Shown: one piece after another, positions 1,815-42,094 of the stretch
How positions within the stretch are numbered: position 1 is the first letter of the stretch
How the letters are laid out: every line of letters starts with the position of its first letter
NCBI GenBank assembly: GCA_943704525.1
Contig: CALSCQ010001300.1
Span: 1-42,122, forward strand
Length of the DNA: 42,122 nucleotides
Direction: 5' to 3'
Source: Pigoraptor vietnamica
Lineage: Eukaryota; Opisthokonta; Filasterea
The notes under the pieces: model-generated
The model's input: the letters and a program-made list of their open reading frames with translations, nothing else
Databases searched by the model: none
What the model was told of the DNA's origin: nothing
Program-made: the position numbers and the translations under genes

Positions 1815-4574
1815 CTACTTGAACGGGTGAAGCAGAGGGATGATACCGATGCAGATGCCGGCAGTCACAATGTCCAGAATGATGCCCATCTTGAGGAAAT
1901 CGACAAGCTTGTAGCGCCCAGGGCCGTAACTGCATAGGCACACAAAGAAAAGACGGGGTTTCAACCGACGCACTTGACGTTGTACATAACAGGCGCTACG
2001 ACGCGACACAACTGAACGGAGGAGAGATACTCACACCATGAGGGTGCACTGGTAGCCCCACGGGAACGCGAACCCGAGAGACGAGGAGAACATGACGGCG
2101 AGCGCGTAGGGCTTGTAGCTCACGTTCAACGTCTTTGCCACGGCCATTGCAATCGGATAAACAAGGCTCGCTGCGTGTCGTATGATTAGGGGGTAATGGA
2201 TAGTACTCCGCAGTTCGAGGACGGGGCTATTGTACCGGAAAGCATGACGTGGCAACCGCAACAAACGACAACCAACCTGCGGCGTTGTTGGTCACAAACT
2301 CCGTAATAACAAGTCCCGCAAGGTACACGCCGGCGAGCGCTCCCCAGTTCGAGTCGCCGCCCGTCGCTTTGACAAGGGCTGTGGCGATCGTCTTGGCCGC
2401 TCCGGACGACTGGAGCGCCTGGCTAATGCCGAGCGAGCCCGCGATCGTAATGAGCACGTTGAGGTCGAAGCTCTTGCGCGCGTCGACGACGGGGACGATT
2501 CCCGTGAGGATGAACGTGATCGCGCACGCCCACGACGCCATGAACATGGTCGTCTTCTCGACCGCCGCGAGCACGATCATCACGATCAGGCACGCCAGCG
2601 CAAAGTGCGCGCGCCACTGCCCGGGAATCGGCGTCGCCGTCGCCGCCGCTTCCGTCTCCTGCACCGTCACGAGGTAAAAGTCCTCGGAGCGCGCGTGGCG
2701 ATCCACGAACGACGGCTTCGCGTCCACCAGGATAAAATCGCCCGACTCGAGCACCCAGTCGTTGATATTGGACGAGCGGATAAGCGTGCCCTTGCGCGCG
2801 ACAGCGACGACCGCGGCGTCGTACAGCTGGCGAAAGAGTCCCTCGCCAACGCGTTTGCCAATCAGGGGGCTCTTGTGCGAAATGACGACCTCGAACAGAC
2901 GGCGATCCTCGCGCAGCTTGGACGCGACGACGACTCCCTTGGCGTCGACAGAGTGCGGGCCCTCGGTATACGCAGGCGGCGGCGTTCCCGCCGTCTTCTG
3001 CGCGTCTTCCTCCGGCACAGACGTGGCCACCACATCGATGCGTTCGCCCTCAGGGTCAGCAGCGTCAATCTCCGTCCTGGCCGCCTCCGCATCGGTCGAC
3101 GATTCCTCGCTCGGCCCGTTAACTGCGACCGAAGTTTCGCGGGCGGTGACCTCAATTTCCTCGGCAGGCGCATGCGCACCACTGGGGGAGCTGTTCGAAA
3201 CGACAGATGCAGACGGGGAAATGTCTGCGGGGTCCACGCGTCCCAGTCGAGCGTTCACAGCCCTGCGCGCCTTGCGGAAGTAGACCTTGGCGAGGCGGTA
3301 CCACTCGGACGGCGTCGTGTACAGGCTGACCTTGCCGGCCTTGCTGCCCATGGTAAACTCGCCGTCGGTCGCGAGGCGCAGGCCCTCGATGTGCTGCAGC
3401 GGCAGAATGTGCGCGAGGGCGCCGCCAAACACAAGGCGGTCGCCGCCGCGAATCACTTGCGAGGGCGACGGCGCGGGGATGACCTCGCCGTCGCGGATAA
3501 TCTCGACGGGGAGCACCTTTGCGACCTTCTTGCCCGAGATGGTGGGGACGCTGATGTCGGCGAGGCGGCGGCCGTTGGCAAGCGGGCCATACTCGTCGAC
3601 GATGAGCTCGGCCGTGTACTCGCGCGGATCGGCAAACGTCTCGCTCGCCGTGCCGCGGTCCGGAATGATCCAGCGCGTGAGGGCAGCGAGCACGATGATG
3701 CCGGCGCCCGTGATGGCGAGACCGATGGGGGCGATGCTGAGGAGCGAAAACTTGGGCTTCTTGCTCTGCTCGAGGAGGCCGTTGACGAGAATGTTGGTCG
3801 ACGTGCCCATGATCGTGATTTGCTGCGGTTGGCAATAGGGGGTCGTCAGACGATTGGGTCACCAGAGGCGTGGAGAGGGCAGCGTGAGCACAATAGCAGG
3901 GAGGCTCAGTGCCGGTAACACACAGTTGACTCACCCCGCCGAGCACAATGGCGTGGCACATGGGCATGAGCAGCCGCGACGGACTCTGCTTGATGCGACT
4001 CGACCAGGCGATGACCTGCACGGATACAGTAGTCAATAGCGTGGGTGAGATGTGCGTTCAATGCAACGTCAGTGTGCGCAAGACGACTCACCTCGGGCAT
4101 GAACATGGCGACGAGCGGCGTGTTGTTGAAGAAGGCGCTCAGCGCCGCGAGGGGGATCATCATGCGCAGGAGCGCGTTCGTGAGCGAGACGTCCGACTTG
4201 AACAGCTTCTTCGTGACGAGGCGAATCGCACCCGTCGTGTCGAGGCCGTGCGCGACGATGAACAGCGCAGCGACCGTGAGCAAGCTCGTGTTGCCGAAGC
4301 CCTTGACGGCTTCGTCCTCGGTGATGACCTTGCTGAAGACCAAAATCATGAGGCAGAAGAAGAAGACGAGGTCCGTCGCAAACTTGTTCGTGAGGAGGAC
4401 GGCGAAGAGAAAGATGCAAACGCCGATCGTGATCCACCCATTGTGGGTTAGGGGATCCACTGTTATCGTCATTTTCGCTTCCGCTTCGCCAGCAGCGCCT
4501 CTTGTTCGGAAGACTCCTGATGCCCTTGGATACGAGTGATGGAGAAGGGCTGTTGCGTTGTTGCCCGCTCGCAC
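1815..4574 (-). CDS. SLC13-family sodium/anion symporter with internal TrkA-C (RCK-C) domains
   Basis: Five exons on the minus strand: 4574-4092, 4015-3935, 3822-2277, 2170-2035 and 1929-1815, all joins in phase. The product is 786 residues from the first ATG, or 752 if the ATG at 4472 is used. The N-terminal half has hydrophobic helices and the motif FFNNTPLVAMFMPEVIAW. The next exons give MPMCHAIVLGG then MGTSTNILVNG, the usual SLC13/CitT signature. Two TrkA-C-like regulatory domains follow in the middle (around ISVPTISGKKVAKV and HKSPLIGKRVGEG). The C-terminal half contains TNNAAASLVYPIAMAV and GYQCTLMVYGPGRYKL, the second pseudo-symmetric anion-binding repeat. Such TrkA-C-containing members occur in algae (SAC1/SLT type) and bacteria and are linked to sulfate or other anion uptake at the plasma membrane. 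The substrate here is inferred. A TATA box lies 48 bp upstream of the first ATG. Confidence 0.88.
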
Positions 4575-6818: not shown

Positions 6819-7196
6819 TGCCGGACACGCATCAGCGTCACAGCCAAGACATCCAAAAACAGCCGCACACACACACACACGCACGACGCAGACGCACGCA
6901 GCAAACACCCCCTCTTTTCTCAACGCATCTCTACAAGGAGGTGCTTTTTGAGCTGCGTGGAAGCGCTTCGCTTCAAGGCGGCGCTGTTTGCGCTTGCAGA
7001 CACTCGAGATCTCTCAAGAGTTGCGGACAGTCTGTTTTGGTGTTGCTTCATTATTCGGAAGAAAGGGGCCTGCAGCCCCTCTCGATCGAATGGCGCCGCC
7101 GTCCGAACCCCCCGGTGGATAGCGCGCGTCGCAACCTGCTGCTCAGGGGGGGTGCAGTGACACGTTCGTGCGTGTCTCGTACTGCGCCTCACACCC

Positions 7197-10100
7197 ATGG
7201 CGTCTACGGAAGTGAGCGCCGCGGCGCTGACTCGCAAACGGCGGGACAGCATCGCAGTCGCCGTCGAAGTCGTCGAGGTGGCGTGCCCTACGAGCGCGGT
7301 CGGAGGCACTGCGGCTGGAGATGGACGGGCGCCCGCGGTCGTCAGTGCTGCGTCGGCGGCGGGCGACGAGGGGGAGATGATCATCACGGACGCGACGCAG
7401 CTTCCCACGTACTTGAGCCCGTGGACGCTCACGTTCAGGTCGCGGGAGATCGAGGACGAGTATCTGCGGGCGCGGCTTCCCTTGCTGCTGCGCACACTCC
7501 GGCTGTGCCTTTGGGCCATCTTTGTCGTCGTGTGGGTGCTATTCTTCGCCGCCTATTTCAACCTGTGGTCGTCGAACAACAACGACATTTACGCGCGCGT
7601 GTCGTTCTTTTACATCGCGGGCGCGGGTGCCGCGATCGTGCTGCAATTCATGAGCTACACGCACTGGTTCAAGGAGCGCCTCATCTTTTACACGTGGCTC
7701 CTGCTGACGCCGTGTGCTGCGCTGCTGGGCGTCCTCCTCTTCGTCCCTCGGGGGATGGCCAACGAAGGCGCCGTGTCGTCGGGTCTCTGCCTCGCGCTCG
7801 TCGGCTTTGTGCTCTGCATGGAGCGCTTCCGCTACATCTCGGCGGTGCTGTGGGCGTACATTGTCGCCTACATTGTCCAGGTGGCCGTCTGGTCCGACAA
7901 CAACACGTCGCAGCTGGTCACGCTGTTCGTCCCTATCATTGCCGTCGGCTTCTTTCCGTGCATGGCCGCGTGGATGATCGACAAGCGGTCGCGCCTTTTG
8001 TGGCTCTCGCAGCGCAGTGTCGACGAGCGCAACGCGTCGCTCTGTGGCGAGAAGGAGCAGATGGAGCGGCTCTTGCGGTACCAGCTGCCGGAATCGATCA
8101 TCGCGAAACTCAAGGGCAACGAGAACAGGCGCTCCGGCTTTGCCATGTCCAACCGCTTCGAGTCGGTCACGGTCGCCTTCGTCGAGCTCTACGGCTGGCA
8201 CGACGTCATGCGATCGGTCGATCCCGGGGACGCTGTGGCGATCCTCAACGCCATCTTCACGCGATTCGACTCGCTCGTAGAGCAATCGGGCAGCGCGATC
8301 GAGAAGATCAAGACGACGGGGAGCCTGTACATGGTCGCGTCCGGCGTCCCCAACCCCGTGGAGGACCACGCCGGGGCGGTGGCCGAGTGGGCGCTGCGGC
8401 TACTCGCCGACTGGCGCTCCGGCAAGACGCGCGCGCACCGTGGGCTCGACATTAAGATTGGTATGCACTCGGGGGAGGTCGTCGGCGGGATTGTGGGCGA
8501 CCTCAAGTTCTGCTACGACATCTACGGGGACACGGTCAACACGGCGAGCCGGTGGGTTGGTGTGACTGCATGCTGCGCGTGAGCCACATTTGTCTCTCGT
8601 TTCGTGCCTGATGTTTAACATTGTCGTTACAAATTTCATAGCTGTTGTCTTGTTCGCTCCGTTCTCTGATGGAGTCCATTATTATATCGGTGATATGACA
8701 CTGCGCTCTGTTGTCTCACTGTCACCGCCGCCCTCCCTTGTCTTTCCCTCGCCAGAATGTGCAAGGCGGGGACGCTGAATCAAATTCAGTGCACGCGTCG
8801 CGTTGAAGAGCTCCTCCAGTCCACCGGCCGCTTCGTCGTCGAATTTGCGGGGCTCAAGGAGTTCAAGGGGAAGGGCACGCTGGAGACGTTTCTCGTCGTG
8901 CGGCGCGTGACGGACCCGGACCCCGCGTTGGTCGCGGAAGCCGCCGACGAGGTCGACGGGCGCCGAAATTCGACGCCGGCCCCGGGCGAGGTGGCGCACC
9001 GGCGCATGTCGCGCAATTCTTTCAACGTGCGCCAGCGCGACAGCGGCTCGTTCACGCGATTGTCCAAGTGGTTCACGCAAAAGGGGGCGCGTCCTTCCGT
9101 GTCGAAGAGCCTCACGACGCACTCGCTCGCCGTCAAGTCGTTCTCCGATATGGCCCTGAACGTGTCGGGCCTGAAGAAGGCGCCGGCGCACCGCGGCAGT
9201 CCCAAACTGCCCAAGCGCCACTTTGTCCACGCGGAGCCGTTGAAGGACGCGCCGTCGCAGTCACACTCCCCTGCCCGTTCGCCAAGCGCGTCCTCCCGCG
9301 CCGCAAGCGACGGCGGTAACAACCGCCCGCCGGACACTCCGCCGTCCGTCGGCAGCGAGGCCAGCGATAAGGCGTGGGCGGAGATCGAAGGACCCTACGC
9401 GCCGCGCGGTCCCGACCGCCGCCCGTTGCGGACGTCGGTGCAGGAGGCCATGAAGCGGCTCGCCATGTCGCTCGAGTCTCTCACGAGCATCGGGAGCAAC
9501 GACGACAGCGACGCATCACCGGCGGGGGGCTCAACCAAGGCGCTGCCGGCGGTGGCTGCGTCGAGCGGCGCGGCGTCGAAGGGTTCGAAAGGGTCGCGGA
9601 GGGCGTCGGCGTCAGCCCTCTCGAGCCCCGCGCGGTCCAAGAGCGGGTCGCTGCTCGAACGCGCGGCGGCGAAGCTGGCGGTGATGGGACCGGCGGATGC
9701 AACGGCGGTGACGGGCGGGACTGAGGCGGTGTTGAAGCCAAGTGCGTCCACCGACGTCATTGCGAAGCCGAAGCAGCCCATCCGTCGCTCTGCGTCGGAG
9801 AACGACGTCGCCTTTCTCGCCGTCGAGTCTGATAGCTCGATTGCGAGCGTCACAGCGAGTGAAATTGACCTACGCATTCGGAGCGGGGATGCAAGCGGAA
9901 GCGAGGACGAGGTGCCGCTGCCGGAACCGATGGGGATGTCGGCGGAGAGCACTCTTCGCTCTGCATCGGTCGCATCGCAACGAAGGAACGAGGGAGCGCC
10001 GGAGGTGTCCGTCACTGCGGCGGCACCAATTCCCGAGGACGCGAAAGAGGACGTCGACGCAGTCGCCGCGAGCCTGGCGAGCTCCCTGAGCCACGCGGCG

Positions 10101-12566
10101 CTGAGTCGCATGCACTCGATGCTGAGGCGCGAATCGGCGGCCGCCCCGATTTCCCCGCAAGTGCAGCGCGTGCACGCGGAGTTCCAGCGGCAGCAGTCGA
10201 TTGCCGCCATGGAGGCGACGAGCAGCTCTGCCGGTGCTGCCGCTGACGGCATGGAGTCGCCAGCGCAGAAGGAGGAGGAAGGGAGCGGCGCGTTCATGCG
10301 TCGCCTCAGCGCCAGTTTCAGCTCGCCGGCGGTGCTCGAGGCCGACGGCGCCGAACCGCGCAACGCCGGCAGGCGGATGTCGATGCGCACGACCGACGCC
10401 ATCTTCCACCGCCGTGACGCCGTGAACAAGGTATGGGCTCCGGTTGTCTCTTCTGTTGTCGGTGTGCATTTCGTGCTTTGTTTTCCTTGTATAGATGGGC
10501 ACGCGTAAACATCGTGTGAAACGCGTGTCGTATCGTGTAGGTGCTCGGGCGCGCCGAGTCCTCACTCGTCGCAAAGCTGTTGGCCACGAAACCGAACCGG
10601 TGGACGCTCCGTTTTGCGGATCCGGCACTCGAGGCGGCCTTTGGGCGGGCGAACAACTACCGCACGCGCAGGATTTCGCTTGTGCACATTGTCGCCGCGT
10701 GGATATTTCTCACGGCGTGCGTGGCGATCGAGATCGCAAGCGACATGTCGGGCACCCGCAAGGCGATTCTGATATGCGTGCGAATCGTCTGCGGAACGGC
10801 GCTGTGTGGGATAACCGGCGCCATACTCGTTGGGAAAGCGCGTGTTGACGGCTGCTTTGTGTGCTGCGGCGCGACGTGGGAACTCCTTGGCAGTTGCTTT
10901 CGGCGCAAGAGGGCGGCACCGCGCCTGCACGATGGGGAGACGCACGTGTCTCACGAGCGGCTCGACCTCAGCAGCGTCGGCAGCGAGGGCGAAGTGCCGG
11001 CGGCGATTGCCGCGCCGGACGGGATCGACCGCATCAAGCGGAAGAGCATGCCGCACATGGGAGCGACGCCAGTGGAGCCCGCGCCCGCACGCCGCGTCTT
11101 GTCGGAGGCGTTCCGCGCGAATGTCGTCCTCGTGATATTCACGAGTCTGTACATTATGCTGACGCTCGGTCTGGTGCTCGGGAGCGGGTCGTTCATGGCG
11201 CTGGACTTCTGGTCGCCCGCGGCGATGGTTCAGTACCTGGACATAATCCTCGTGGCCTCGCCCGGCATCTCTCTGCGCTTGCAGACGTGGCTGTTCACGG
11301 CATTTGCCGCGGCGGCGATTGTGCTCAAGGCGTTCTATCCGGACGAGTACTCGCTGTTCTCGCTGCTCGTCGGCCTAATTGGCATGATCATTGCGGTGGG
11401 GACACAGTACCTGTTTGAGCGCCACGAGCGCAAGCAGTTCATCCTCGACGCGGTCGCCGTGGAGCAGGAGAAGGAAATTCGCGAGGAAAAGCTCCTCGGG
11501 GAACAGGTGCGATCTCCCAATGTTTTGTTTGTATTTTTTTGTTTTGTTTTTCTTGATACTTTTTATTGTCCGTCCAGTACTCACACATCCGCAACACAAG
11601 CGTGCGTGCACATATATACGTATTCAATTCCCTCCATCATTCACGCAGCTGCTCCACAACATCCTCCCGCCGTCGATTGCGCGCATGCTCAGCGAGCAGG
11701 CGTCGAGCAGCACCGCGCGGCAGTTTGACGCGGTGACCGTGCTCGCGATGGACATTGCGGGATTCACGCTCATGTCTTCCGAAATGGCCGCATCAGACGT
11801 CGTCTTTTTGCTCAATTCGCTCTTCAACGGGTTCGATGCCCTCGTGCGCCTCCTCGGCGTCGAGAAAATCTGCACGATCGGTGGGTGTCTTGTCGTTGTG
11901 CTTCGCGAATGTGACGTCCATGCCGATAACACCTCTCCATCGCAGGCGACGCGTACGTGGCCGCTAGTGGCGCGCCAGAGCCGTGCGCGGACCATGCAGA
12001 GCGCACCTGTCGATTGGGCGTTGAGATGCTCCGCGTCGTCGCCATGTACAATGCCGCACATCGGCCCCGCCGTCCCGTGCAAGTGCGAATCGGCGTGCAC
12101 ACGGGCACGTGCGTCGCCGGCATCCTCGGCGGAAAGGTGCGCAAATTGCCACGCTCACTTTATGAAGCGGTAGGCTCTCTAAATTGTTGACACCTCTCTT
12201 TGTTTTTAGATTCGCTTCAAGTACGATCTCTACGGTGACGCCGTCTACGTGGCGAGCTCCCTCGAGCAGAGCGGCCAGGCGGGCTGCGTGCACATATCGC
12301 GGACGACGGCCGACGTGGTCGATCTTGACCGGCTCGCAGGGTCCCACCGAATGGTGATCGACGCGTGCGATGCGCCCGTCCGCGTTACCGTGAGCGGCGT
12401 GGAAATGGACATTGCGACGGTGCTCGTTCATCCGGCGCGCGTCAAGATCACGGGCGGCCACCGGCTCGACGCCAGCCACAACAGCCACCACAGCAACAAC
12501 AATCCCGCCCCGCAAAGCGCCGCATCGTCGCGCATGACGTCCGCTATGTCTTCGCCCCACTTCTGA
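7197..12566 (+). CDS. Transmembrane adenylyl cyclase with two class III cyclase domains (mammalian-type 2x6 TM layout)
   Basis: Six exons: 7197-8551, 8756-10430, 10541-11506, 11649-11880, 11946-12136 and 12210-12566, all in phase, giving 1591 residues. Order: six hydrophobic helices (about residues 95-265), cyclase domain 1 (about 310-500), a Ser/Ala-rich linker of about 450 residues, a second hydrophobic block of about six helices (about 1055-1310), and cyclase domain 2 (about 1340-1530). This is the layout of animal G-protein-regulated adenylyl cyclases, which make cAMP at the plasma membrane. Domain 1 lacks both metal aspartates (Glu330, Ser376) but keeps the adenine and transition-state residues Lys372, Asp441, Asn448 and Arg452. 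Domain 2 keeps both metal aspartates (Asp1367, Asp1411) but has Cys1407, Tyr1486 and Ser1490 at the other positions. Together they can form one complete active site. Regulation by G proteins is inferred, not seen. Confidence 0.9.
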
Positions 12567-12892: not shown

Positions 12893-12902
12893 GGGGATTT
12901 CC
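12893..12902 (+). promoter_or_regulatory. kappaB-consensus site (distal)
   Basis: GGGGATTTCC fits GGGRNWYYCC exactly and continues as GGGGATTTCCC. It lies 413-422 bp upstream of the NF-kappaB ATG and directly abuts a palindrome containing CCAAT and ATTGG. Confidence 0.5.
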
Positions 12903-12926
12903 CAATATTGGGTCAGCAGAGTTGCG

Positions 12927-13061: not shown

Positions 13062-13071
13062 GGGGAACTCC
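13062..13071 (+). promoter_or_regulatory. kappaB-consensus site (proximal)
   Basis: GGGGAACTCC fits GGGRNWYYCC exactly and sits 244-253 bp upstream of the NF-kappaB ATG and about 170 bp upstream of the TATA box. Confidence 0.45.
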
Positions 13072-13247: not shown

Positions 13248-13314
13248 TTTGCAGCGTCTGTTACCGCAGTCGAAGACCTCGGCGACGCAATCGCCGGGCG
13301 ATTAGCGGCCCCAG

Positions 13315-16300
13315 ATGGCGGCTATTGTTCCCAAGGCAAGGCTCACCGCCGACGACGTGGAGCTCGCTCTCCAGCAACTCCAAGCGCTTGATAGCGTGGC
13401 CGCGCAACGGTTTGTGCCGTCAATGCGAGGACCCCTTGCGATTCCCTTTGGCGCGGCGGAGCGCGGCGGATTGAGCCCACAGCTCGAAGTGCCCTCCACT
13501 CCAGACGACGATAGCAGCTCGTTGGCGACGCCTGGGTTCGTGCTCCCGGGCATGGACGTGGCGCTCAAGGCCGAGGACGACGGAACGGTGATGGATTTTG
13601 CAGAGCTTGAACGCCTCCTTCAGCTTGCGCCGGAGCACTTGATGGCCGGACACATGCCGCACGGTTCCACGGACGCGTTCGGCGTTGCGATGGGAGGGCC
13701 CATGGCGGCGGCGCCGGAGCAGCAGTTGCAGATGCAGATGCAGGCGGGCAGCGGCCCCGTCGAGATCCCCGACCTCCTCATGATTACGGACCAGCCGGTG
13801 CAGTTTGGGCGCTTTCGTTACAAGAGCGAGCAGCGCGAACGGTCGCTGGACGGCGAGAAGTCGTGCCCAGAGGTCCAGCTGAACCCGAAGTACCTGTCGC
13901 TGGTGCCGACGGACGCGATTGTAACGGCCACGCTGGTCACGAAGACGACCGGGCCGGACGGTCACCCGCAGCCCCACTGGCACGAGCTCGGCGGAAATAC
14001 GGCGTCGCTGCTCAGTGGTCACGAGAGGAAGGCGCGGTGCGTTGCGTGTGCGCATGCGTGTCGGGGTGTCGTGCATGCGTGTATGCGGGTTTAGTGTAGA
14101 ACGTTCTCCCGCTTGCGCTGTTACTCATCCCACGCCTGACTTTCAGGTTTGAGAACCTCGTCATTCTAATCGAGAAGACGAACAGCACGCGCGTGGCGCG
14201 CAACAAGGAGGACCAGCGCGCCGTGCGCATCCAGTTTCAGCTCACGTTTGGCGTGGGCGGGCGGATGTTCTTTGGGCGCGCCGTGTCGCACCCCGTGTAC
14301 AACGGTGGGTCCCATTTCGTGTCGTCGCGTGCCATCTGGAGCAATGGGAACACAGTGTGTGGGAGCACAGTCCGCGTCTGCGCGCTTGGAGACTTGCGGG
14401 AACAGTGCCTTTTTGTGTCAGATGTTCTTCTGCGAACCATCCACTTGCTCGTTGTGCCGAGACGCTGACTATGCGTCGTCGCCTGCGCAGCCAAACTTAT
14501 GATTAACAGGCTGTCCCACGCCTCTGGGCCCGTTACCGGCGGCAACACCGTGATTCTCCTCTGCTCGAAAGTGCGCAAGGGTGCGTGTCATCCCATCGCG
14601 CGCGTCTCGCACTGCTTTGTGTTGAAAGTTTTTGGCCGATCGTTTCGTATGCCCACTCATCCTGGGCGTATCTTTATCCATGGTGCAGCGTGTACCACTA
14701 TCCGCGTGAGCGAGCGGACGGCGCCGCACAGCGCGTGCGTCTTTGAGGGCACCGGCGCGTGGCAGGAGGGCGTGTGCATCCTGCCCGTGTCGCACCTCTC
14801 GTTCCACCACCAGTTTGCGATAGTGTTTGCCATGCCGCCGTTCCACACACCGAATGTGGGGGCGCCCGTGACCGTGGACATTGAGATTATCGACACGGCC
14901 GATCGCACCAACAGTCAGCCCGTCGAGTATCTCTACATGCCCACGGGTGAGAAGCGTCGTGTGCGCGCCGTGCAAAGCCGGCGTTTCTGTGCGTGTGCCT
15001 TGCGTTGCTTTTCCGTAGTTGTTGCTGACATGCCCTTCTCGCACGTCCCTGCAGACGAGAGCCGGTTGCAAATGGCGCAAGCAAGCAAGAAACGCAAGTT
15101 TGACGACGGCATGAACGATTTCTGGCGACACTTCGGTCTCGGCGGCCCTGGTCCTCAGGGGGGTCAGCCTGGCAACGACCCCTCCGGCGGCGGCGGCGGC
15201 GGCTTTGGACCCCTGGGATTTGGTGGCGGCGGCTTCTCACTAGGAATGCAGCACGGGGGCGCGGGCGGCCCCGCGATGGACGTGATGGCGCTGCACATGA
15301 ACGCCGTCCGCTTTTTTGCGCACTCTGGGGACGCGCGCTTCCTGCTGGCTGCGCAGAGGGGCCTCATCGGGATGTCAGACGCCGACGGGAACAAGTGGGT
15401 GTGGCGAGGATTCTGTGTGTGCGTCGCATGTGGCTCTGCTTTTGTTTGCTTCGTATGCGTTGACTTGGTCCTCATGTTTCTGCGCTTTCTCGCCCAGCTC
15501 TCTTCACCACGCCATCGCGGAGGGCCGCGTCGATGCCGCGCTCGCTCTCGCCGCTGTGGCACTCCCTACGGCCATTTCGGACGCGAACAACGACGGCAAT
15601 GTGAGTTGTCCGTTCGCTGCGCTCTCGGCTTTGTCGAGTGTGTTTTGAAATTGTGACTAACGCTGGGCGCTTTGAAAAACGCAGACGCCGCTTCACTTTG
15701 CTGTTGAGCGACGGCTAGCCACTGTTGTGCAGCGGCTGGTTGAGCTCGGCGCCAACGTTTCCGCGCGCAATGCGGTTGGGAACACGCCCGTGCACCTCGC
15801 TGCCCGACAGCCCGGCCGCGTGGTACTCGAGTGCCTGCTGCGGCAAGGGGCGGTGGGCGTGTGCGAGGCCCTTCTGATGCCAACCGCCGACGGCCTCCTC
15901 CCGGCGCACGTCGCGGTCATCGCGCGTCAGCCCGAGGCACTCGCGGCCATCCTCAACGCTGGCGCCCACCCTGATGCTGTGAGTGTGCTGAACGTCCGCA
16001 TGACCGTCTCGCTGCTGTTGTGCAGTGTGTGTTGCTGCTCGCTGTCCTGCGGTGTGTGCTTTTACTCACTGGAGTCCGCTGCTTGGTACCGCAGCGCGAC
16101 ATGTGCTCGGGATGGACGTGCCTGCACCATGCGGCTGCCCTTGGACTTCCCCCCGTGGCCATGCTCCTCCTCAAGGCCGGCGCAAGCGTGTCATCCTTGT
16201 CGCACGCCGAGCAGACCCCCCTTCACGTCGCCGTGGGCGCTGGTTCTGTGGCTGTCGTGGACGAACTTCTTGGTGCTGGCGCTTCGCCGTGCGAGCCGGA

Positions 16301-16775
16301 CGGCACCGGCCTGACGCCGCTCGACATGGCGGTTGATCTGGCGGCGCGTCCCTCGGGCGAGCGCATTGTCCTCGCGCTGCGCGAGCGTTTGTCGCAGGGC
16401 ACCCTCGCGGCTCCGGAGGCCTTGTCGCGGATGTCATCGATGGATCCCGCGCCCATGTCGGAGGAGGACGGCTCGCGCGGGCCGAGCGGGGACGAGGACT
16501 ACGTCATGCTGCCCGAGAGCCTCAAGGAGGTCAAGATCTCCGACGCCGACCTGCGCATCGGCAAGTGGCGGAAGGAGGGCGCGCAGCAGCAGGGAGGCAT
16601 GAAGATTGCCCGCAAGCTCAAGGCGCGCCTCGGCGACGACAAGGCCGGCGGAAAGTCTGCCAAGCGTAACAAAAGCGCCAAGAGCGGATCGTCGTCGAAG
16701 CTCGCCGAGTTGGCAGCGGAGAAGCCGGCGGCGGCGGACACGGCTGACGGCGTCAGCCTCATGGGCGTTGACTGA
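13315..16775 (+). CDS. NF-kappaB p105/p100-type protein: Rel homology domain plus ankyrin repeats
   Basis: Eight exons in phase: 13315-14036, 14147-14304, 14491-14580, 14689-14946, 15055-15394, 15498-15600, 15685-15978 and 16095-16775, giving 881 residues. After about 155 N-terminal residues comes the Rel homology DNA-binding half, with the recognition loop RFRYKSE at 166-172. The IPT/dimerisation half starts near 294 (GPVTGGNTVILLCSKV, then HHQFAIVFAMPPF). An NLS-like KKRK sits at 421-424 and a Gly-rich hinge at 437-481. Five or six ankyrin repeats fill roughly 495-690, with SLHHAIAEGR, TPLHFAVE, TPVHLAA, TCLHHAAALG and TPLHVAVG. A charged, Lys-rich tail follows and no death domain is visible. 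In animals this layout gives a precursor whose ankyrin half holds the Rel dimer in the cytoplasm until processed or degraded. The Gly-rich hinge is the processing signal in p105. The redox-sensitive Cys of the loop is Ser171 here. Confidence 0.93.
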
Positions 16776-17179: not shown

Positions 17180-20100
17180 TCACACAAAACCAAAGTCGCG
17201 GCACTGCGAAATGGCCGTCTTGAGCTTGTCGCGCAGCGTCGCCTCGTCCTCATACGGCGGCAGAACGAGCTGTCGCGAGCACGTCCGCGCTGTGGGATAC
17301 GCGTCCTTCGCGAGGTTCGGGTCGACCGTGATCTCAATCTTGTAGTTCGCCTCGTCGTCGTCATGAGCGCCTGGTGCACGCTCCTGCGCAGCCAGCGCGT
17401 CCGGGGGAAGGTGCCGCGAGCCCGTGACAAACTCGAGCAGGTCGCCAATTTCCTCGGGCGAGAGGCCATCCACCCACCGCCAAAACATGGCTGCGGCCGG
17501 GTGCATCTTGTCAATGTCGACGCGCACGACGTCGGCGGGCGCCCCGTTCGCATTCAAATCCCCTCCCCAGAACATGTCAAACTCGGCGTCGGCGTCAAAA
17601 TCGCTGTCGTCGTCGTCGTCCTCGCTGTCGCCGCCCATCAACATGCCGTGCAAGTCGGTCATTCGCAACACCGCGTCCGTCACAGCCCTCGCGTGCTCCG
17701 AGTTCACGAATGCGGCGAAATTTAGTGCCGCGATTAAGTTCTGCCGGTCCCTCGTCTCCTGCCGGTTCCCCCTCTCCCGCTCCTCCCGGCCAATGAGTCG
17801 CTGGCTGCGACGAGGGCCCGGCTGCGCGGCGCCCACAGCGTTCGCCTGGCCTTGTTCCGCCGGCCCCGCTGCAGCGTTCGCTCCTGCCGCCCCGACACGT
17901 GCGGGCGCACCACGCCTCGCCGCATTCCGTTGGTTTCGCCTGCCACCATTGGCGTGATCCCCAGGATTTTCACCGAGGGCGGCGTGGGGAGCGTAGTGGA
18001 CAGCGAGACGCCGAAGGTCGGCGCCCGAGACCCTCTGCAGGCCAAAAATCGCTTTCCCGAGAGCATCCGGGGGGAGAAGGCGCAGGAAGCCCGTGTCGAC
18101 CGGGTACGTCAAGACATCCGCGAAGCCGTCGGACAGCGCATCCATCTGCGCAATCACACTGTCGCGCACAATCGACTGCGCCATGAGGTCCAGGTAGCGC
18201 CCCTTGTTGCCCTCCGAAAGCGCCATCTCCCGCCCGCCTTCGCACAGCTCGATCTCTTCACCGGATGAGAGCGCACGCGTAAATCGTGGCTCCCCGAGGA
18301 CGGAGAGTGCCGCGGCGTCCAGCTGAACGTCGCGGACGTGCTTCGACAGGGACGCATGCAACTCTGGATCCACCTTCGCGAGCGCGTCGAACGACGTGCC
18401 GTAGTCGTTGTCCATAAAAAGCATCATGAATGCCGGCGCAAGGTGGGCGTCGATGGGCTCGCGACGGACAACCGCGCAACCCATCAGCCGGCCAAACAGC
18501 CTATACTTCACCAGCGACTCGGCGTCGGTCGCACTCTCCGAGAAGTAGGCGCCCGTGCCGGCGTGGCGCGTGACAAAGAGACCCTCCCTTCGCGACAGCA
18601 GCTCTCGAGCGATGGCGGTGAGCGCTGCACTGACGACGCCGGGTCCCTTGCCCAGCTCGCCCTCGAAGCGCGCCGATATCATAAGCGGGTTCAGCGACCC
18701 CATCTCCGTCTTGTTCTTGAATGTGGGCGCCGCGAGCGCAGAAGCTACGATGCGCGATCGGTCAATCACGAGCACGTGTTCCGCCTCCATTTCCGGCGTC
18801 GCGTCTTCCATCTGCTCGCGAAAGTAGCGGACGTTGTGCGTGACAAACGCCCGCACAAATTCGTCGGACATCGCGCAGAGCCTCTCGATGACCATGGGCG
18901 CCGCGGCCGCAATCGCGCGCGTGCAATCCGAATACCCGATGCCGTCCTCCAGTCCCGCGAAGATCGCCATAAAGTCCCGGATGTATTCGTCGTCCACCAT
19001 CACGCAGAGCAGCACCGCGAGCGGCTCCGGCACCCACTTGCCGCGCACGGCCGACTCCGGCGCGAACACCTGAAGGCAGTGGAACACGGTCAAGAGGCCG
19101 TTCGCGAACACCGCCCGGGTCTCGGCGACAATGTCCTCGTCCATGTCCTCGTCCAAAGGCAGCATCGATATGATCCTCTCGACCGCGCGCAGCAGAGTTT
19201 CCTGAAGCTTCCGAGGTGCCACGCCCTGGAGAGGCGCAATGACGCCCGGGTCGTCGTCGTACACGCGGTGGTCAAGCGCGGCAGCGAGCACCGCCAGGCC
19301 CGACGCAGAGCACGAAGGGCGAAAAATGTCATCCGCGTCGTCGGGGTCGGGGTCGGTGAGCGGCGCGCGATCGCCCCACACCTCGCTGCCGGGACCCAGC
19401 CCAATGTGCGCACAAATCGCGAGCATCTCGCGCACCATCACCGCGCGGTGGGTGTCGTTTGCAAAGACGCGGCGAAGGAGAGCGACGCCCTGGTCCGAAA
19501 GCCACGCGCAGTTCGCGCCGTCGCTGAGGTCCCACGCAAGATAGCGGCACAGCTCCCGCGCGCGCTCCTTCGACAACTTTGGACTGGCCGCCACAATCGT
19601 CTGCAGAATGCACTCCCGCATCTCCTCCGTCATGTTGCCGGAGTCCGCTGCGCACCGGTACGGCGCGTCTTCCAGCGCCCGATCACCCGCGCAGAGCACC
19701 CGCGGCCCACGCGCGTCGAGGACGAGCCGGAGCAGGTCGAGGTTGCCAGACGCGCAGGCGTCCACGGCGAGCGAATCCGCGTCGATGGCGCTCATATCCC
19801 AGACCTTCGAGTCGCGCGGGAACCGCCGAAAGACCATCGTGGCCAGCCGCGGGTGCTCGATCACGAGCGAGTGGGTGAACATGCCGCGCGTGCCACCGCG
19901 CGGGAAAATCGCGTCCTCCAGCGCCTGCAGGGGCATCGCGTCAACGACGACGCCCTGCAGCCTCAAAACGCTCGCGGCGTCCTCGCCCTCGAACTTGTCC
20001 ATCAACAAATCCAGCGCATCCACGCACTTCAGCGGGTCCTTGTACACGCACGGCAGCGCCTCGAGCACCGCGCCCGCAAGGTCACTAACGTCGACCGAGC

Positions 20101-21100
20101 GCGCCACCTCGTACGCCTCCCGCGAAAATTCTTCCCATAGAGCGACGGCCGACGCTTGGGCCGGCGCAGCCTTCGACAGGCGCAACAAGTCCGTCAGCAC
20201 GGCGGACGCAACACCCCCCGAGAAGAACGCCGTCGCACACCTCCATGCAATCAAAGGCGGGGCACAGGCGACGGGCCGCGACACGAGCACAGTACGAACC
20301 AACACGTGAGACACGAAATTCCGGCCGGAAAAACTGCCCGCGTGCCGCAGAGTGTACGCGCGACCGGGCGCGAATAACGAGCGCGCCACACGCAGCACCC
20401 CTCTCGAAGGCCGTCCCGCAGCTACGCGCAGCACGTCGCACGAGACCATTTTGTCGTCTTCGTCGAAAAGCGCGAGGTCCAGAAGGATCGGATCCGAGTC
20501 GTCCCCGGCATTCTCAATGGGCACGACCGATACGTGAACGGCCAGGCACAACGGCACGGTTCGATAACGCACGTCCGGCACTCTGACTTTGCCCCCCAGG
20601 CTCAGACCATTTTGGAAGCCGACGTACATGCCGCACTTGTCGGACGTCGACACCGTGCCCGTGTAATCGCCCGGGTACTTCTTCGTGAGCCACTCGACGC
20701 AGGACGAGAGACGCGCAAACGAGGCGACATCCGTGATGGTATTCGCCACGGCGTACGTGACGTCCGCCATTTCGTTCGGCATCGACTCGACCTGACGCCC
20801 CCGCGATGGGCGGTCCTTGCCGGCGAGCGCTTCCTCGACAGCGCGCTTGTACTCGGGTCGCAAGTGCTCGTGGAAGGACGAGTCGATTACCTCGTGAAAC
20901 TTGGAACGCAGGGCGGTCGCATCTGCCTCGTTCACAGAGGCGCACGCTTCGGTCGCCTTGCGCGAGCGCTTGCGCGTCCCCCCTGCCGACAACTCCTCAT
21001 CCTGACGACGCTTCCTCTCGTTCGTCGTGCTCGTCGAGTCCGCATCGGCCATTTCCACGTCCGAAGGGACGGCATATCGATGGCGAGACATGCGCCGCAT
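17180..21100 (-). CDS. Intronless HECT-domain E3 ubiquitin ligase with a long insert in the HECT domain
   Basis: A single uninterrupted frame of 1306 residues (a second ATG lies nine bases downstream at 21091). The N-terminus is basic (KRR and KRSRK, NLS-like). About 700 residues that I do not recognise follow; they are mainly helical and Ala/Leu-rich with several acidic patches. The C-terminal part is a HECT domain: LNPLMISARFEGELGKGPG near 800, FGRLMGCAVVRREPID, then FWRWVDGLSPEEIGDLLEFVTGS and YPTARTCSRQLVLPPY. Cys1274 is the expected thioester cysteine, and the chain ends ...CRDFGFV as is usual for HECT enzymes. HECT ligases take ubiquitin from an E2 on this cysteine and pass it to a substrate. 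About 160 residues (roughly 1037-1198), basic then strongly acidic, interrupt the domain just before the FWRW motif. Substrate unknown. It is the only intronless gene among intron-rich neighbours. Confidence 0.88.
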   Translation of the reverse strand: MRRMSRHRYAVPSDVEMADADSTSTTNERKRRQDEELSAGGTRKRSRKATEACASVNEADATALRSKFHEVIDSSFHEHLRPEYKRAVEEALAGKDRPSRGRQVESMPNEMADVTYAVANTITDVASFARLSSCVEWLTKKYPGDYTGTVSTSDKCGMYVGFQNGLSLGGKVRVPDVRYRTVPLCLAVHVSVVPIENAGDDSDPILLDLALFDEDDKMVSCDVLRVAAGRPSRGVLRVARSLFAPGRAYTLRHAGSFSGRNFVSHVLVRTVLVSRPVACAPPLIAWRCATAFFSGGVASAVLTDLLRLSKAAPAQASAVALWEEFSREAYEVARSVDVSDLAGAVLEALPCVYKDPLKCVDALDLLMDKFEGEDAASVLRLQGVVVDAMPLQALEDAIFPRGGTRGMFTHSLVIEHPRLATMVFRRFPRDSKVWDMSAIDADSLAVDACASGNLDLLRLVLDARGPRVLCAGDRALEDAPYRCAADSGNMTEEMRECILQTIVAASPKLSKERARELCRYLAWDLSDGANCAWLSDQGVALLRRVFANDTHRAVMVREMLAICAHIGLGPGSEVWGDRAPLTDPDPDDADDIFRPSCSASGLAVLAAALDHRVYDDDPGVIAPLQGVAPRKLQETLLRAVERIISMLPLDEDMDEDIVAETRAVFANGLLTVFHCLQVFAPESAVRGKWVPEPLAVLLCVMVDDEYIRDFMAIFAGLEDGIGYSDCTRAIAAAAPMVIERLCAMSDEFVRAFVTHNVRYFREQMEDATPEMEAEHVLVIDRSRIVASALAAPTFKNKTEMGSLNPLMISARFEGELGKGPGVVSAALTAIARELLSRREGLFVTRHAGTGAYFSESATDAESLVKYRLFGRLMGCAVVRREPIDAHLAPAFMMLFMDNDYGTSFDALAKVDPELHASLSKHVRDVQLDAAALSVLGEPRFTRALSSGEEIELCEGGREMALSEGNKGRYLDLMAQSIVRDSVIAQMDALSDGFADVLTYPVDTGFLRLLPPDALGKAIFGLQRVSGADLRRLAVHYAPHAALGENPGDHANGGRRNQRNAARRGAPARVGAAGANAAAGPAEQGQANAVGAAQPGPRRSQRLIGREERERGNRQETRDRQNLIAALNFAAFVNSEHARAVTDAVLRMTDLHGMLMGGDSEDDDDDSDFDADAEFDMFWGGDLNANGAPADVVRVDIDKMHPAAAMFWRWVDGLSPEEIGDLLEFVTGSRHLPPDALAAQERAPGAHDDDEANYKIEITVDPNLAKDAYPTARTCSRQLVLPPYEDEATLRDKLKTAISQCRDFGFV

Positions 21101-21648
21101 GGCGCGAAAAGTTATGCCGTCGAAAAATAAAAGGCGGAATCACAAGTGGTACAACAATTACACAAGGGAACAAGTGAGGTCGCTCCACTCACGATCCCAA
21201 CATAAACGATACGTTAAATAGAGGCACGCACACTTCGCACAACAGGGGTACTCGCATGAACCCCTGCTCTTCACGATCACACGCAAAAGAGACGCACACT
21301 TCACATCCAGTGTGAGTGCGTGCGTGTGCGTGTGCATATGTGCGTGCGTGTACGTGTGCGTGTGTGCGTTTCAGTTACACCGTCGTCATCACAAAGAGCC
21401 TTGATTTATTTCGCAACGGCCAATCCCATACAAATTTCATAGTGAATGGAAATTTATTTGAATTGCACAGTGTGGCGCCAAACCAGAACTTTCCGTTATC
21501 TCACGTGCATACGGTGTAACGGTGTAACGAAGCTTTACTATCGTAAAATATATTCCGATGTTTATTCTTTGATTCCAGCACTGCGTCAGTTGAAAATCCC
21601 ACGGCTTCGTTTTTTCTCTCCGGTTTTCGCTCACCTATTTCTCAAAAA
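21101..21648. other. Divergent promoter region, HECT ligase / START protein
   Basis: About 550 bp between two divergent starts. It holds a GT/GC-T microsatellite at 21310-21372 and a CGGTGTAA tandem near 21509-21525. An AT-rich part just before the START gene includes AAATATATTCC near 21545. No coding potential is supported. Confidence 0.5.
21310..21372 (+). repeat. Imperfect (GT/GC-T) simple repeat
   Basis: Alternating purine-pyrimidine tract built of GTGC and GTGT units in the gap between the HECT and START genes. Confidence 0.7.
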
Positions 21649-22798: not shown

Positions 22799-24789
22799 AT
22801 GTCGCGGCCGCTGGACTATTCGAAATGGAACAACATTGAGATTAGCGACGACGAGGACGACACGCACCCGAACATCGACAAGGAGAGCCTCTTCCGGTGG
22901 CGGCATCAGGCGCGTGTGGAGCGCGAGAAGCAGGAGAAGGAGGAGACGGAAAAACTCATCGCCGCAAAGAAGGAGTGAGTATATATCGCGTCATATCGCG
23001 TTGCGGTTGTCCGCAGCGTGTGGGTGTGTGGTGTGCGTGTGCGCGCGCATGTGCTTGCGTGCGTAAATGTGTGCGGAGAGTATGTGTGGGTGTGGCGATG
23101 CACTGTTGTGCACGTGTTTGTGTGCGTGTGTGGTGTGCGAGTGCGCAGTACTGTTATATTGACATGGGTTTCCCCCAGGACGCACTCGAAGGTTGAAGAA
23201 GTGCAGCAGAAGATTGCACAGGTGAGAATGCCACCCTCTGTGACTCGGATGCATCGCACACTGTCACTCCATGGTGGTCACCTTTGCTTTGATGGGCATG
23301 CATTCGCCTTTGATATGCGCTGCAGTTGCCGTTCCTGCTCGTGATTCCCGTGTGCGGCTCTGGCACTGCTAGTTGACGCTCCAATGCATCCGTCCGCAGT
23401 ATGGCGAGAACAGCCCCGAAGTCGCCGAGCTGAAGGCGAAGCTCACGGAGCTGGAGAAGCAGGAGCTCCACTTTGCCCAGAAGGAAGCCGAAATCCGCCG
23501 ACAGAAGGAGTTGTACCCGAAGTGGAACATCGACAACATCTGCAAGCCGGGCTTCGACAAAGTGGTGGGTGGCTGCGCGGGGGAGAGAGTGCATGCCGGT
23601 GTGTCTCTTGCGGGCGGCCGGCTGTTTGTGGACTGCAGGTGGCTTGTTATGTGTCGGAGAATAGAGGCTGTCGCCCCAGTAGACGCGTTCGCCCTGTGTA
23701 CATCGTTGCGTCGTAGTTGCCGCCGCTGCTTTCAATCTGACTTTGCGCTGGATGTGGTGCGCAGGTGCTCAACAAATCGACCGCGCCGGCCGCCGCGCCT
23801 GTGGACGAGGAGCAGGAGGCGAAGGACACTGTGGGTGCTTGCTGCTTCATGTGTGCGCAGTTGCAGTGTGCGTGTTATTTCCGCGTCGGTGTATCTCAAA
23901 GCACTCATGCGTGCGCTGCCATGTCACCACGCGTGCCTGCGTGTTCTCTGACCCCCTCCCTGCCTGCGACAGACCAAGTTTTTCAAGGACAACGAGAAGC
24001 GCATCAAGAAGTTTGGCATGCTCCAAAAGTTTGAGGACTCGCACCGCTTCCTCATGGAGAATCCCGACCTCGCCGCGGAGGGAACGGCCAACTACCTCGT
24101 CCTCTGGGCCATCGAGCTCGAGATGGAGGGCAAGCACGACCTCATGCGGCACGTGGCCCACCAGACGATCGTGATGCAGTACATCCTCGAGGTCGCCAAG
24201 ACGGCCAAGCGGGATCCAAAGTCGTGCGTCAACGGCTTCTTCCAGCGGTGCGTGCTTGCGTGCGTGTGCATGATATATTGCGAGTGTGTGTGGGCCGTGT
24301 TGATTGTTTGTGTGTGTGCGTTCGCACGAGTGTGTGTTCGCACATAGGCTTCCTGTTGCGCTTGTTGACACGTGCCGCATTCGCGTCCGCAGCATCAAGG
24401 CCGCAGATCAGGCGTACATGGACGCGTTCCAGGACGAAGTGGCGCAGTTTGTCAAGCGCGTCGAGGCCCGCGCAAAGGTCAAGATTGAGGAGGCCACGCG
24501 CGAGTTGGAGGAGGAGGAGCGCCAAAAGCGGCTCGGTCCGGGCGGGCTGGACCCGCTCGAGGTGCTGGAGGAGCTCCCCGCCGACATGCGCGAGGCGTTT
24601 GAGACGCAAGACATGCCGAAGCTGCACAAGGCCCTCGCCGCGCTTCCCATCAAAGAGGCGCGGCTCTACATGAAGAAGTGCGAGGACTCCGGGCTGTGGG
24701 TGCCGTCGAAGGAGGCCAAGGAGGAGGCGGCCGCGGCGGAGGCGGCGGAGGCGGCGGAAGCGGCCGCGCGCGAGCAGGCCGGAAAGTAG
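22799..24789 (+). CDS. CDC37: Cdc37, HSP90 co-chaperone for protein kinases
   Basis: Six exons: 22799-22974, 23179-23221, 23400-23564, 23765-23830, 23973-24247 and 24393-24789, giving 373 residues. The N-terminus [20 protein letters not shown] followed by THPNID and [12 protein letters not shown] is the conserved Cdc37 signature. Ser16 matches the CK2-phosphorylated serine (Ser13 in animals) needed for kinase clients. A coiled coil follows ([11 protein letters not shown] to [15 protein letters not shown]). The HSP90-binding middle region has [20 protein letters not shown]. The C-terminal part contains [15 protein letters not shown] and [14 protein letters not shown], ending in an Ala/Glu-rich tail. 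Cdc37 loads newly made kinases onto HSP90 in the cytosol. A TATA-like GCGTATATGAG lies about 75 bp upstream. The end of exon 3 could be 3 bp shorter; this changes one residue. Confidence 0.95.
23008..23150 (+). repeat. GT-rich simple-sequence intron
   Basis: Most of the first Cdc37 intron consists of imperfect GTGTGC/GTGTGG units on the sense strand. Confidence 0.7.
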
Positions 24790-25108: not shown

Positions 25109-28100
25109 TCACTTGTTCTCCGTGATGGGAACGATCTTGTCCGAGTACTTGACGAAGACGCCGTGGTTCGGCTTGCTGCGCATGGACGCACGAAAGTAAG
25201 TGCGAGCGTACGGACCCGCGTCTAAAACGAATTGTGGCAAAACACACTGTCGCATCGCAATAGACCAAGCCATCTCAGCCCAGTGCAGCACATTCGAGTG
25301 TCCCACAGGCCATACGCACCATGCAAAGTACTGCCGCCCGTGCACGGACCCATTGTTCTTTCCGACTAGAAGAGGGCAGAAGAGAGAGGCGAACGTCAGA
25401 AATAAACGTGTGTTCAACTTTCCGGTGGTACGACAACACGAAGAGCACGTGACCGGCGCCACTCACCGGGCTTCTTCAGGACGACGCCGACCCACACGCC
25501 CTTGGCGAAATCCGTTAGCCCAATGTACTTGATCACGCCGACCTCGCCGTTCACAGACACGTTCTGCCCCTCCCGGAGATCGTGCCGCTGCGCCTGCTCC
25601 CGCTGCGGGCGCGGCGATGACGGCGTTGCGCTCGCGGCGTGGATGTTGTGGTTGCTTCCCGATCCGCGCTGCAGCGGATGCGTCGGTGTCTCGAGATGGT
25701 GCCCTTCCGATGCTGAGGCCGCAGCGGACACGGCGCCGTGCTTCTCTGACGAGGGTGTCGCAGCGGCGGGAGCATGCGCGCCCGGAGTTGAGTGCTTGTC
25801 CGCCGACGCTGTGGCTGCCTGCAAGTGCGACTGCGCGGTAGTGACTGCAACGGACTGTGTCGAAAGCGGCGCTCTCTGTTCCCCCGACACAAGCGCCTCA
25901 ATCGAAGCAGCCGCCGCAGCGACATTCGCCGCGTGATGTGCCTGCGAGGCGCGCACTCCATTGGGCGTGTTCTGCCCCGAACCCGCCCTCGAGCCTGTCC
26001 TGCTGCCGCCCTGCGCAGACCCCGAGCCACTACCGAGTTCGTGCTCCTCGCGCAGTCGCGCCGCCCTCTGCAGCGCTGCGGAAGTGGCTGTAGGCAACGG
26101 TGCGTACGCCTGGTGCGGCACGTGCGCGTGGCCGGGAAGCGAGGTTGCAGAGTGCGCGGAGGCAGAGTGCGCGGAAGCCGAGTGCGCGGGCGCAGCATGT
26201 GCCTGCGTTGGGTGATCGGCGTTCGCGGCCTGCTGGGCATGCGCGTGGTGGTTGGGCACCGTCCCGTGAGTGCGTGACGACTCATCGTTCGCATGCGAAG
26301 GACCCTCTGCAGTAGACGCGTGCGCCTTGGTTTCCGCGAGTCGCGCGAGGAGTCGGGGTGAGAGCATCGCTGTGATCATCGGATCGGACAGAGCCGCCCC
26401 GAGCGTGCCAGGAGGGTGCGCTGCACCCGAACCGTCTCCGTGCGCAAACGACTGCGAGTGCGGCAGGCGACGCGGAGAATCTGTCGGCGCGTGCGTCGTG
26501 CGACCGGCGAGGTACCGCGCCTCAGTGACCGACGCAGCGCGTGCAAACGAGGAGCCCTCAGTCCTTCCAGCGCGCAGCGGGGCAACCGTCCCAGACAAGG
26601 CAACACGCTGCGCCGCAGGGGCATGGCCGGCCCTCGCGGCGCCTTCGTTTTCCGCTGGCGCACCATCCTCCCGCAACGGAGCCACATCCTCTGCATCGTC
26701 GTTGTCGGCATCGGCATCTCCCTTGAAACCGCGCGACAACGTATGGACCTCCACAGCGGTATCGAAGCGCACCGAGAGAGACTTGCCACCCATCGCGCGC
26801 TTGTGTGTACCCGCGTCCTCCAGCTCTCTTCGCCGCGACGAGTCATTCGCACTCGCGACATGCGACATCGTCGAAGGCACCGGCTGCGTTCGCGGGGCCG
26901 GCTGTTCCGTACTTCGCCCACCGTCATCAGACCGCGGTGCCGGCTGCGTGTCCGCACCCGCGTCGCCCGCACCAGTCGGCGGTTCGGCCCACTCGGGGTG
27001 CGTCTCCCGAACTTTTGCCTCAGCCGCCTCCAGCGCCGCGCGTACCTGAGCAACAGGCGCTGCGTTGGGGGGCGACGGAAGTGCAGGGTCTTCGTCGTCC
27101 GCGCTTGCGATGAGCTCGCGTGGCGTGCGACCCATGGCGTCGCGTTGGAAGGGGTTCGCATTGTGCGCCAACAGCACGTCGACAACCTTTACGTGCCTCC
27201 CAACGGCCGCCAGATGCAGGGGAGTGGCACCGTCCAGCCCGGGCACTGTGGCTGCAGAGACAGGAAGAGAGAAAAACCGCAGTGAAATGGGGTGAGACTA
27301 TAGGCGTCGCGATTACGCAACAACAACGACTCGTGCTCTACATTGAGCGACAGCTCCGCCGGTCCGATGCCACGGCACCCATCAAACACAGATAGAAAGG
27401 GCTCCTGGCGAAAAATCTGCGACACTATACTCTGCCCCGCACACACCCTCAATATTAGCAGGAGTTCGTCCTTCGAGCAGCGTTCCTACGACCGCGTCGC
27501 AGCCGTAATGCGCGGCCACGTGCAGCGGCGTCATGCCCGTCCACTCGCTTGCCAGGTCCGCAGAGGCGCCAAGGAGCACAAGGGAGGCCGCAAGACGCGC
27601 CGCCCGCCGCGCATCGCCGTAACCCTCTGCGGCACAAGAAAGCGTCAACGAAAGTCCAGCCCATACACAACGTGCACATGCTGTTTGCGCGGTGTACGAG
27701 GTCTGTCTAGAGTGAGTGCACTGGGGCAAAGAGAGCATAAACAATGCCTCGGACACAACACGCGAACAAGCGCAAGTGAAGCACACCTGCGCCAGCCCTT
27801 GCCGCGTAGTGCAGCAGCGTCATCCCTGTCATTCCGTCGCGGTCGTCAAGGTGGCCCCCTCGGCACAGTATCTGTTTTGCAATGTCCTCGATGTGCGCCT
27901 GAGCCAACGGCGTCCACTGCCGCAGAATGGCAAACAGCTGCGCCACGGACGTGCTCGGCCTGCGAAGAGCGGCACGGTTGAACCCAGCGCACAGAGCGGC
28001 ACAAAAAATGCCCTAAAATGCAGGGACGTACATGACCCTCACGACAACACATAACAATTATACTCACTCATCTGCTCAAAGCACAGCTAAACTCCATCGA

Positions 28101-42046: not shown

Positions 42047-42094
42047 GTGCGCGAAGAGAAACAGTTGCCGACATTGCGTGGCCCTCTGTCTCAA

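Follow-up and report, generated by a model that had tools for sequence, protein, structure and literature searches.

The window analysed here is the whole 42,122 nt stretch of contig CALSCQ010001300.1, and the gene in question lies at 13315–16775 on its forward strand. This gene very probably (probability about 0.86) encodes a genuine p105/p100-class NF-kappaB that is retained by its own ankyrin part. A Rel homology domain (RHD), a KKRK nuclear localisation signal (NLS), a Gly-rich hinge and a p105-type ankyrin domain follow one another in one reading frame; the first-pass annotation of this DNA had proposed the same order, and every part of it was recovered by Pfam, motif search and glycine count. 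Animal immunity depends centrally on NF-kappaB proteins that carry their own inhibitor, and the plan has been traced to the animal–fungal ancestor from few sequences. The present intact, intron-mapped gene is a further case; the Ser that it naturally has at the redox site and its possible self-control sites are open to testing.

Gene model and domain evidence

The gene model was assembled by hand, joining exons at GT-AG sites, and is supported by Pfam and by phmmer against the Protein Data Bank (PDB). It comprises eight exons on the forward strand (13315–14036, 14147–14304, 14491–14580, 14689–14946, 15055–15394, 15498–15600, 15685–15978 and 16095–16775, the last including the stop), giving a coding sequence of 2646 bases (882 codons with the stop, 881 aa) that is open throughout. 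An in-frame TAG is located at 13303, 12 bases 5′ of the ATG at 13315. All seven introns are GT-AG and span 84–186 bp, and third codon positions have a GC content of 80 %. The gene appears native to the genome carrying it rather than a stray insertion, because the intron-bearing CDC37 gene further downstream (22799–24789) has similar introns (142–204 bp); pooled, the 12 introns of the two genes span 84–204 bp with a mean of 140.

The KKRK signal, the hinge and the cap that precedes the ankyrin repeats are all located within exon 5 (15055–15394). Moreover, a genomic open reading frame (ORF) at 14469–15656 spans the dimerisation domain, NLS and hinge and runs into the cap, even with introns 3 and 4 read through. 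Since this single ORF links the dimerisation half to the helix before repeat 1, the Rel and ankyrin parts are very probably one gene, which supports the earlier proposal that a complete p105/p100 precursor plan is encoded here as a unit.

The N-terminal region (aa 1–149, 13315–13761) is acidic in its middle by net charge and contains MDFAELERLLQL (aa 93–104), an acidic-hydrophobic stretch that could be an activation segment and may resemble one of RelA. An AlphaFold model of exon 1 made with no alignment had a mean pLDDT of 38.3 and was not of usable quality. The DNA-binding half of the Rel region follows (aa 150–293, 13762–14303, split by the intron at 14037–14146) and was recognized both by alignment to p50, p65 and NFATc2 and by RHD_DNA_bind (E 2.3e-05), which matched aa 155–229 only, at 24.9 bits. 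The dimerisation half is IPT-like (aa 294–409, 14304–14945, split by introns at 14305–14490 and 14581–14688) and matched RHD_dimer at aa 298–409 with 66.2 bits against a cut-off of 28.3 (E 2.9e-18). With aa 1–431 as the phmmer query, 49 of the 50 PDB sequences at E<=0.1 were Rel/NF-kappaB chains, the best being p65 (1.3e-18); the remaining one, a TetR chain (E 0.0024), was taken as a chance match. None of the 50 was an NFAT chain, though the database has at least 14 NFAT sequences. Identities over aligned RHD columns ran in the same direction, with 91/245 for p65, 83/251 for p50 and 54/235 for NFATc2.

Within the DNA-binding half, the recognition loop RFRYKSE (aa 166–172, 13810–13830) aligns with RFRY[VK]CE of p50/p65, so that the RxRY loop is kept and Ser171 (AGC, 13825–13827) stands in place of Cys. 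The equivalent position is Cys in nearly all characterised NF-kappaBs, and a natural Cys/Ser polymorphism in Nematostella is described as altering DNA binding and thiol sensitivity (PMC2751831). The half is also shorter than in p50/p65; an insert is absent in the alignment and the linker is short. Six p50/p65 linker residues lack a counterpart between the Rel halves, that is, an animal-type linker was not found, and this linker appears to be animal-specific in the survey of PMC8763368. The Ser for Cys and the low-scoring DNA-binding half are possibly new details.

The NLS KKRK (aa 421–424, 15087–15098) is placed by motif and by its position after the dimerisation domain. The Gly-rich hinge (aa 437–483, 15135–15275) contains 24 Gly in 47 aa, a count matched by none of 2000 shuffles. 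Beyond it, the p105-type cap helix and ankyrin repeats (aa 491–757, 15297–16400, split by introns at 15395–15497, 15601–15684 and 15979–16094) were identified by Pfam, with Ank_2 the best ankyrin family (E 8.2e-33), and by pairwise alignments, for which a provisional human p105 sequence was used and the p100 letters were taken from PDB. NCBIfam matches were to generic ankyrin, far below cut-off. The domain aligns with p105 from the helix preceding repeat 1 onward, with 93 of 241 residues identical and a score of 294 (maximum of 200 shuffles, 64); for p100 the corresponding values are 86/230 (37 %) and 289 (shuffle maximum 77), and a stretch of ankyrin-1 scored 216. The segment preceding the first repeat, HMNAVRFFAHSGDARFLLAAQRGLIGMSDADGN, is the most telling part of this comparison. 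It scored 84 against p105 (shuffle maximum 43), in line with the resemblance to p105 noted in the first-pass annotation, and 66 against p100, but only 28 against ankyrin-1, which is within the shuffle range (maximum 38). In addition, p100 matched the ankyrin query as one continuous stretch (residues 13–248 of 276, 97.7 bits), and the best single stretch among three chains with domain tables reached 62.4 bits (ankyrin-1).

The C-terminal tail (aa 758–881, 124 aa, 16401–16772) consists of an acidic, Ser-bearing stretch with five S-x-x-D/E sites, followed by a Lys/Arg-rich stretch. As anticipated before this analysis, no death domain was found among the Pfam matches of the spliced protein at E<=1, and a pattern search of the whole protein found no DSGxxS; other kinase sites may be present.

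Several observations weigh against this assignment. The RHD_DNA_bind score falls below the curated cut-off of 27.0, with only profile positions 1–74 of 169 matched, so that the profile search proposed earlier for the spliced protein recovered RHD_dimer and Ank outright and RHD_DNA_bind below threshold. By whole-chain E-value, p100 comes 34th among the best 60 of 386 matches, after long repeat proteins and designed ankyrins, and with the cap alone as query it is 15th of 18 (E 0.008), below generic ankyrins. Because both of these ranks favour generic ankyrins, the p105 identity of the repeats rests on the single-stretch and pairwise comparisons, the latter with ankyrin-1 as sole control. Finally, in Capsaspora itself both full-length and truncated NF-kappaB are described as mainly cytoplasmic (PMC8677719), and release in protists thus stays a proposal.

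Proposed mechanism and alternative readings

Family knowledge and the Capsaspora work together suggest how such a protein would behave. The full-length protein would dimerise through the second Rel half, and the C-terminal ankyrin domain would fold back on the dimerisation domain and NLS, keeping the dimer cytoplasmic and off DNA. The Capsaspora ankyrin part binds the RHD part and, in vertebrate and yeast assays, keeps it out of the nucleus, prevents it from binding DNA and stops activation (PMC8677719); hence the present protein would be expected to be inactive when made and to become active on loss of the ankyrin part at the hinge. Less certainly, this part may be removed, the likeliest route being proteasomal digestion that halts at the Gly-rich hinge, and the freed RHD dimer may then enter the nucleus and bind kappaB sites. 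Cutting at the hinge is somewhat favoured by analogy; release by another route, or no release, is possible. Transcription may be the main determinant of how much active factor is present, perhaps with feedback on upstream kappaB-type sites. Because DSGxxS is absent and a broad survey retrieved neither IKK nor NEMO outside animals (PMC8763368), release is probably independent of IKK.

The alternative that survives best departs from the above in the release step only. It holds that the protein is a class member whose ankyrin part is never removed, an uncleaved and retained factor whose activity would depend on NLS exposure after phosphorylation of the acidic tail, or on the level of synthesis. 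The lack of both DSGxxS and a death domain fits such a factor, as do the five S-x-x-D/E sites of the tail. For Capsaspora, processing is described as not induced by IKK, and transcriptional control has been suggested for several early-branching organisms (PMC8677719). However, the hinge is kept, glycines and all, at the p105 position, which suggests a role in processing or as a flexible linker, and the uncleaved factor is considered doubtful.

The sequence might instead be the published nucleariid protein of Parvularia atlantis, for which the same architecture has been described (PMC8763368). The 12 pooled introns of the window are, however, well above the Parvularia mean of 60.67 bp (PMC9492541), none being shorter than 84 bp, and only a slim chance is left to this identity; the NF-kappaB proteins themselves were compared by description. 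A mis-joining of two adjacent genes, one for a factor with the Rel part only and the other for an ankyrin protein like IkappaB, would have a parallel in the gene-splitting event thought to have occurred in Nematostella (PMC13042239). Such a split appears very unlikely from the layout of the locus, given that NLS, hinge and cap share one exon, the dimerisation domain is connected to the cap by an uninterrupted ORF, and the downstream ankyrin exons are joined by GT-AG introns. A protein that is no NF-kappaB orthologue but arose when an IPT/Rel-like domain was convergently fused to generic ankyrin repeats could draw on the sub-threshold DNA-binding half and on the high scores that generic ankyrins also give, but it is scarcely credible where order, NLS, hinge and an NF-kappaB-type cap, with its 84 against p105 and 28 against ankyrin-1, all coincide. 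The preferred reading accordingly stays that of a p105/p100-class NF-kappaB retained by its own ankyrin part.

Upstream kappaB-type sequences and neighbouring genes

Two kappaB-type places lie on the forward strand in the 746 bp that separate the NF-kappaB gene from the cyclase gene upstream. The first, GGGGATTTCCC (12893–12903), consists of overlapping GGGRNWYYCC matches and starts 422 bp 5′ of the ATG; the second, GGGGAACTCC (13062–13071), starts 253 bp 5′ of it. Human NFKB1 is under feedback control by kappaB sites; a literature search aimed at this brought up no paper. Matches to GGGRNWYYCC occur at four distinct places in the 42122 bp, and two of the four fall within these 746 bp (binomial P 0.0018, post hoc), as does the sole GGGRATTYCC match of the window. 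First-order Markov resampling of the upstream stretch, likewise post hoc, gave P values of 0.0008 for GGGRNWYYCC, 0.0032 for GGGRNNYYCC and 0.005 for GGGRATTYCC. However, there is no enrichment over the full window, with 6 matches against 3.55 expected and 19 of 100 shuffles reaching 6, and at least one GGGRATTYCC is present in 16 of 100 shuffled windows. Furthermore, the sites were spotted by eye before counting, and overlapping matches inflate the count. Because of the missing enrichment and the prior sighting of the first site, self-control through these candidate sites, possibly a new detail, is a lead only.

Other genes of the window are of varied predicted function. On the reverse strand, a CitMHS-type transporter with two TrkA_C stretches was identified by Pfam at 2281–4460, a plan also found in algal and bacterial sulphate transporters. 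Two adjacent class III nucleotidyl cyclase genes with hydrophobic N-terminal parts (111.9 bits; 27.2 bits for one exon) precede the NF-kappaB gene on the forward strand (7161–12566). Convergent with the NF-kappaB gene is an apparently intronless ORF of about 1300 aa for a HECT ubiquitin ligase (17180–21139, reverse strand), in which HECT is matched in two stretches. The CDC37 gene (forward strand) is complete in six exons and matches PDB CDC37 chains, presumably human, at E 1.5e-99. At 25417–28012 (reverse strand), ORFs encode ankyrin repeats and, after them, a CAP-Gly domain (27.0 bits against a cut-off of 26.5), an arrangement reminiscent of animal CLIP3/CLIP4. Exons matching His_Phos_2 in Pfam (33350–37700, reverse strand) are, we presume, probably of a PPIP5K/VIP1-type inositol polyphosphate kinase, and exons of a kinesin motor domain lie near the window end (40752–42058, forward strand). 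Neither tRNAs nor Rfam families at gathering score were found in the window.

Survey coverage and comparison with known systems

The first-pass annotation had suggested that, should the host be unicellular, the retention and processing logic predates animals. This stands insofar as the joining of RHD, Gly-rich region and ankyrin repeats, together with cytoplasmic retention, has been published for Capsaspora (PMC8677719), and for the same reason it is not new. The p105-type architecture is known in filastereans, ichthyosporeans and the nucleariid Parvularia atlantis, and the plan has been inferred for the opisthokont ancestor (PMC8763368). For Capsaspora, a 2026 review of NF-kappaB in holozoans gives the same picture (PMC13042239). 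The present gene, carried by a compact eukaryotic genome whose host is probably a unicellular relative of animals, is a good further example of a protist p105-type NF-kappaB, not a new kind of protein.

The manner in which such proteins are surveyed does merit attention. The survey of PMC8763368 retrieved proteins by RHD_DNA_bind, with gathering thresholds for architecture and an older Pfam release. Proteins like the present one could escape it, because retrieval relied on the profile whose present-day cut-off is missed here by 2 bits. The Pfam analysis described in a choanoflagellate paper did not detect Capsaspora NF-kappaB (PMC6040629). Since the RHD_DNA_bind cut-off can reject a real p105-type protein, calls of NF-kappaB absence in other protists merit re-examination by RHD_dimer combined with ankyrin. 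A host outside Opisthokonta, with a self-inhibited plan older than the animal–fungal ancestor that was overlooked through this cut-off, and with a factor made feedback-controlled by its upstream kappaB-type sites and thiol-insensitive by its recognition-loop Ser, is quite unlikely, though it would raise interest sharply if true. The open-licence papers that were read did not mention any Rel homology protein from outside opisthokonts, and searches covering Acanthamoeba, Fonticula and Thecamonas yielded no paper. Pattern searches for RHD relatives gave no match in viral contig collections and nine in prokaryotic ones, none confirmed by tblastn; little was expected there.

Among known systems, NFAT has the two-part Rel homology region in common with this protein. 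Unlike it, NFAT has no ankyrins according to PMC8763368, and identity is only 23 %; no PxIxIT calcineurin docking motif is present in the protein, which does have one LxVP-like LEVP at aa 57. The Rel/NF-kappaB-like protein of Parvularia atlantis has, by description, an RHD that includes the dimerisation domain, a Gly-rich region, ankyrin repeats and no death domain, as here (PMC8763368). Capsaspora owczarzaki NF-kappaB also combines RHD, Gly-rich region and ankyrin repeats in one protein, and no IKK-type serine cluster is reported in its published account; compared by description, it is larger through extra residues after the ankyrins, against the 124 aa tail here (PMC8677719). The native Capsaspora protein shows no IKK-induced processing, and its basal processing in 293T cells is blocked by MG132 (PMC8677719).

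Unlike vertebrate p105 and p100, the present protein has neither a death domain nor DSGxxS, and it differs from them further in the Ser for Cys of the recognition loop, the short DNA-binding half and linker, and a shorter loop before the last repeat. Nevertheless, the elements of human p105/p100 follow in the same order here, from RHD through NLS, Gly-rich hinge and cap to the ankyrin repeats; over aligned residues, the RHD is 33 % identical to that of p50 and the ankyrin domain 39 % identical to that of p105 (provisional sequence).

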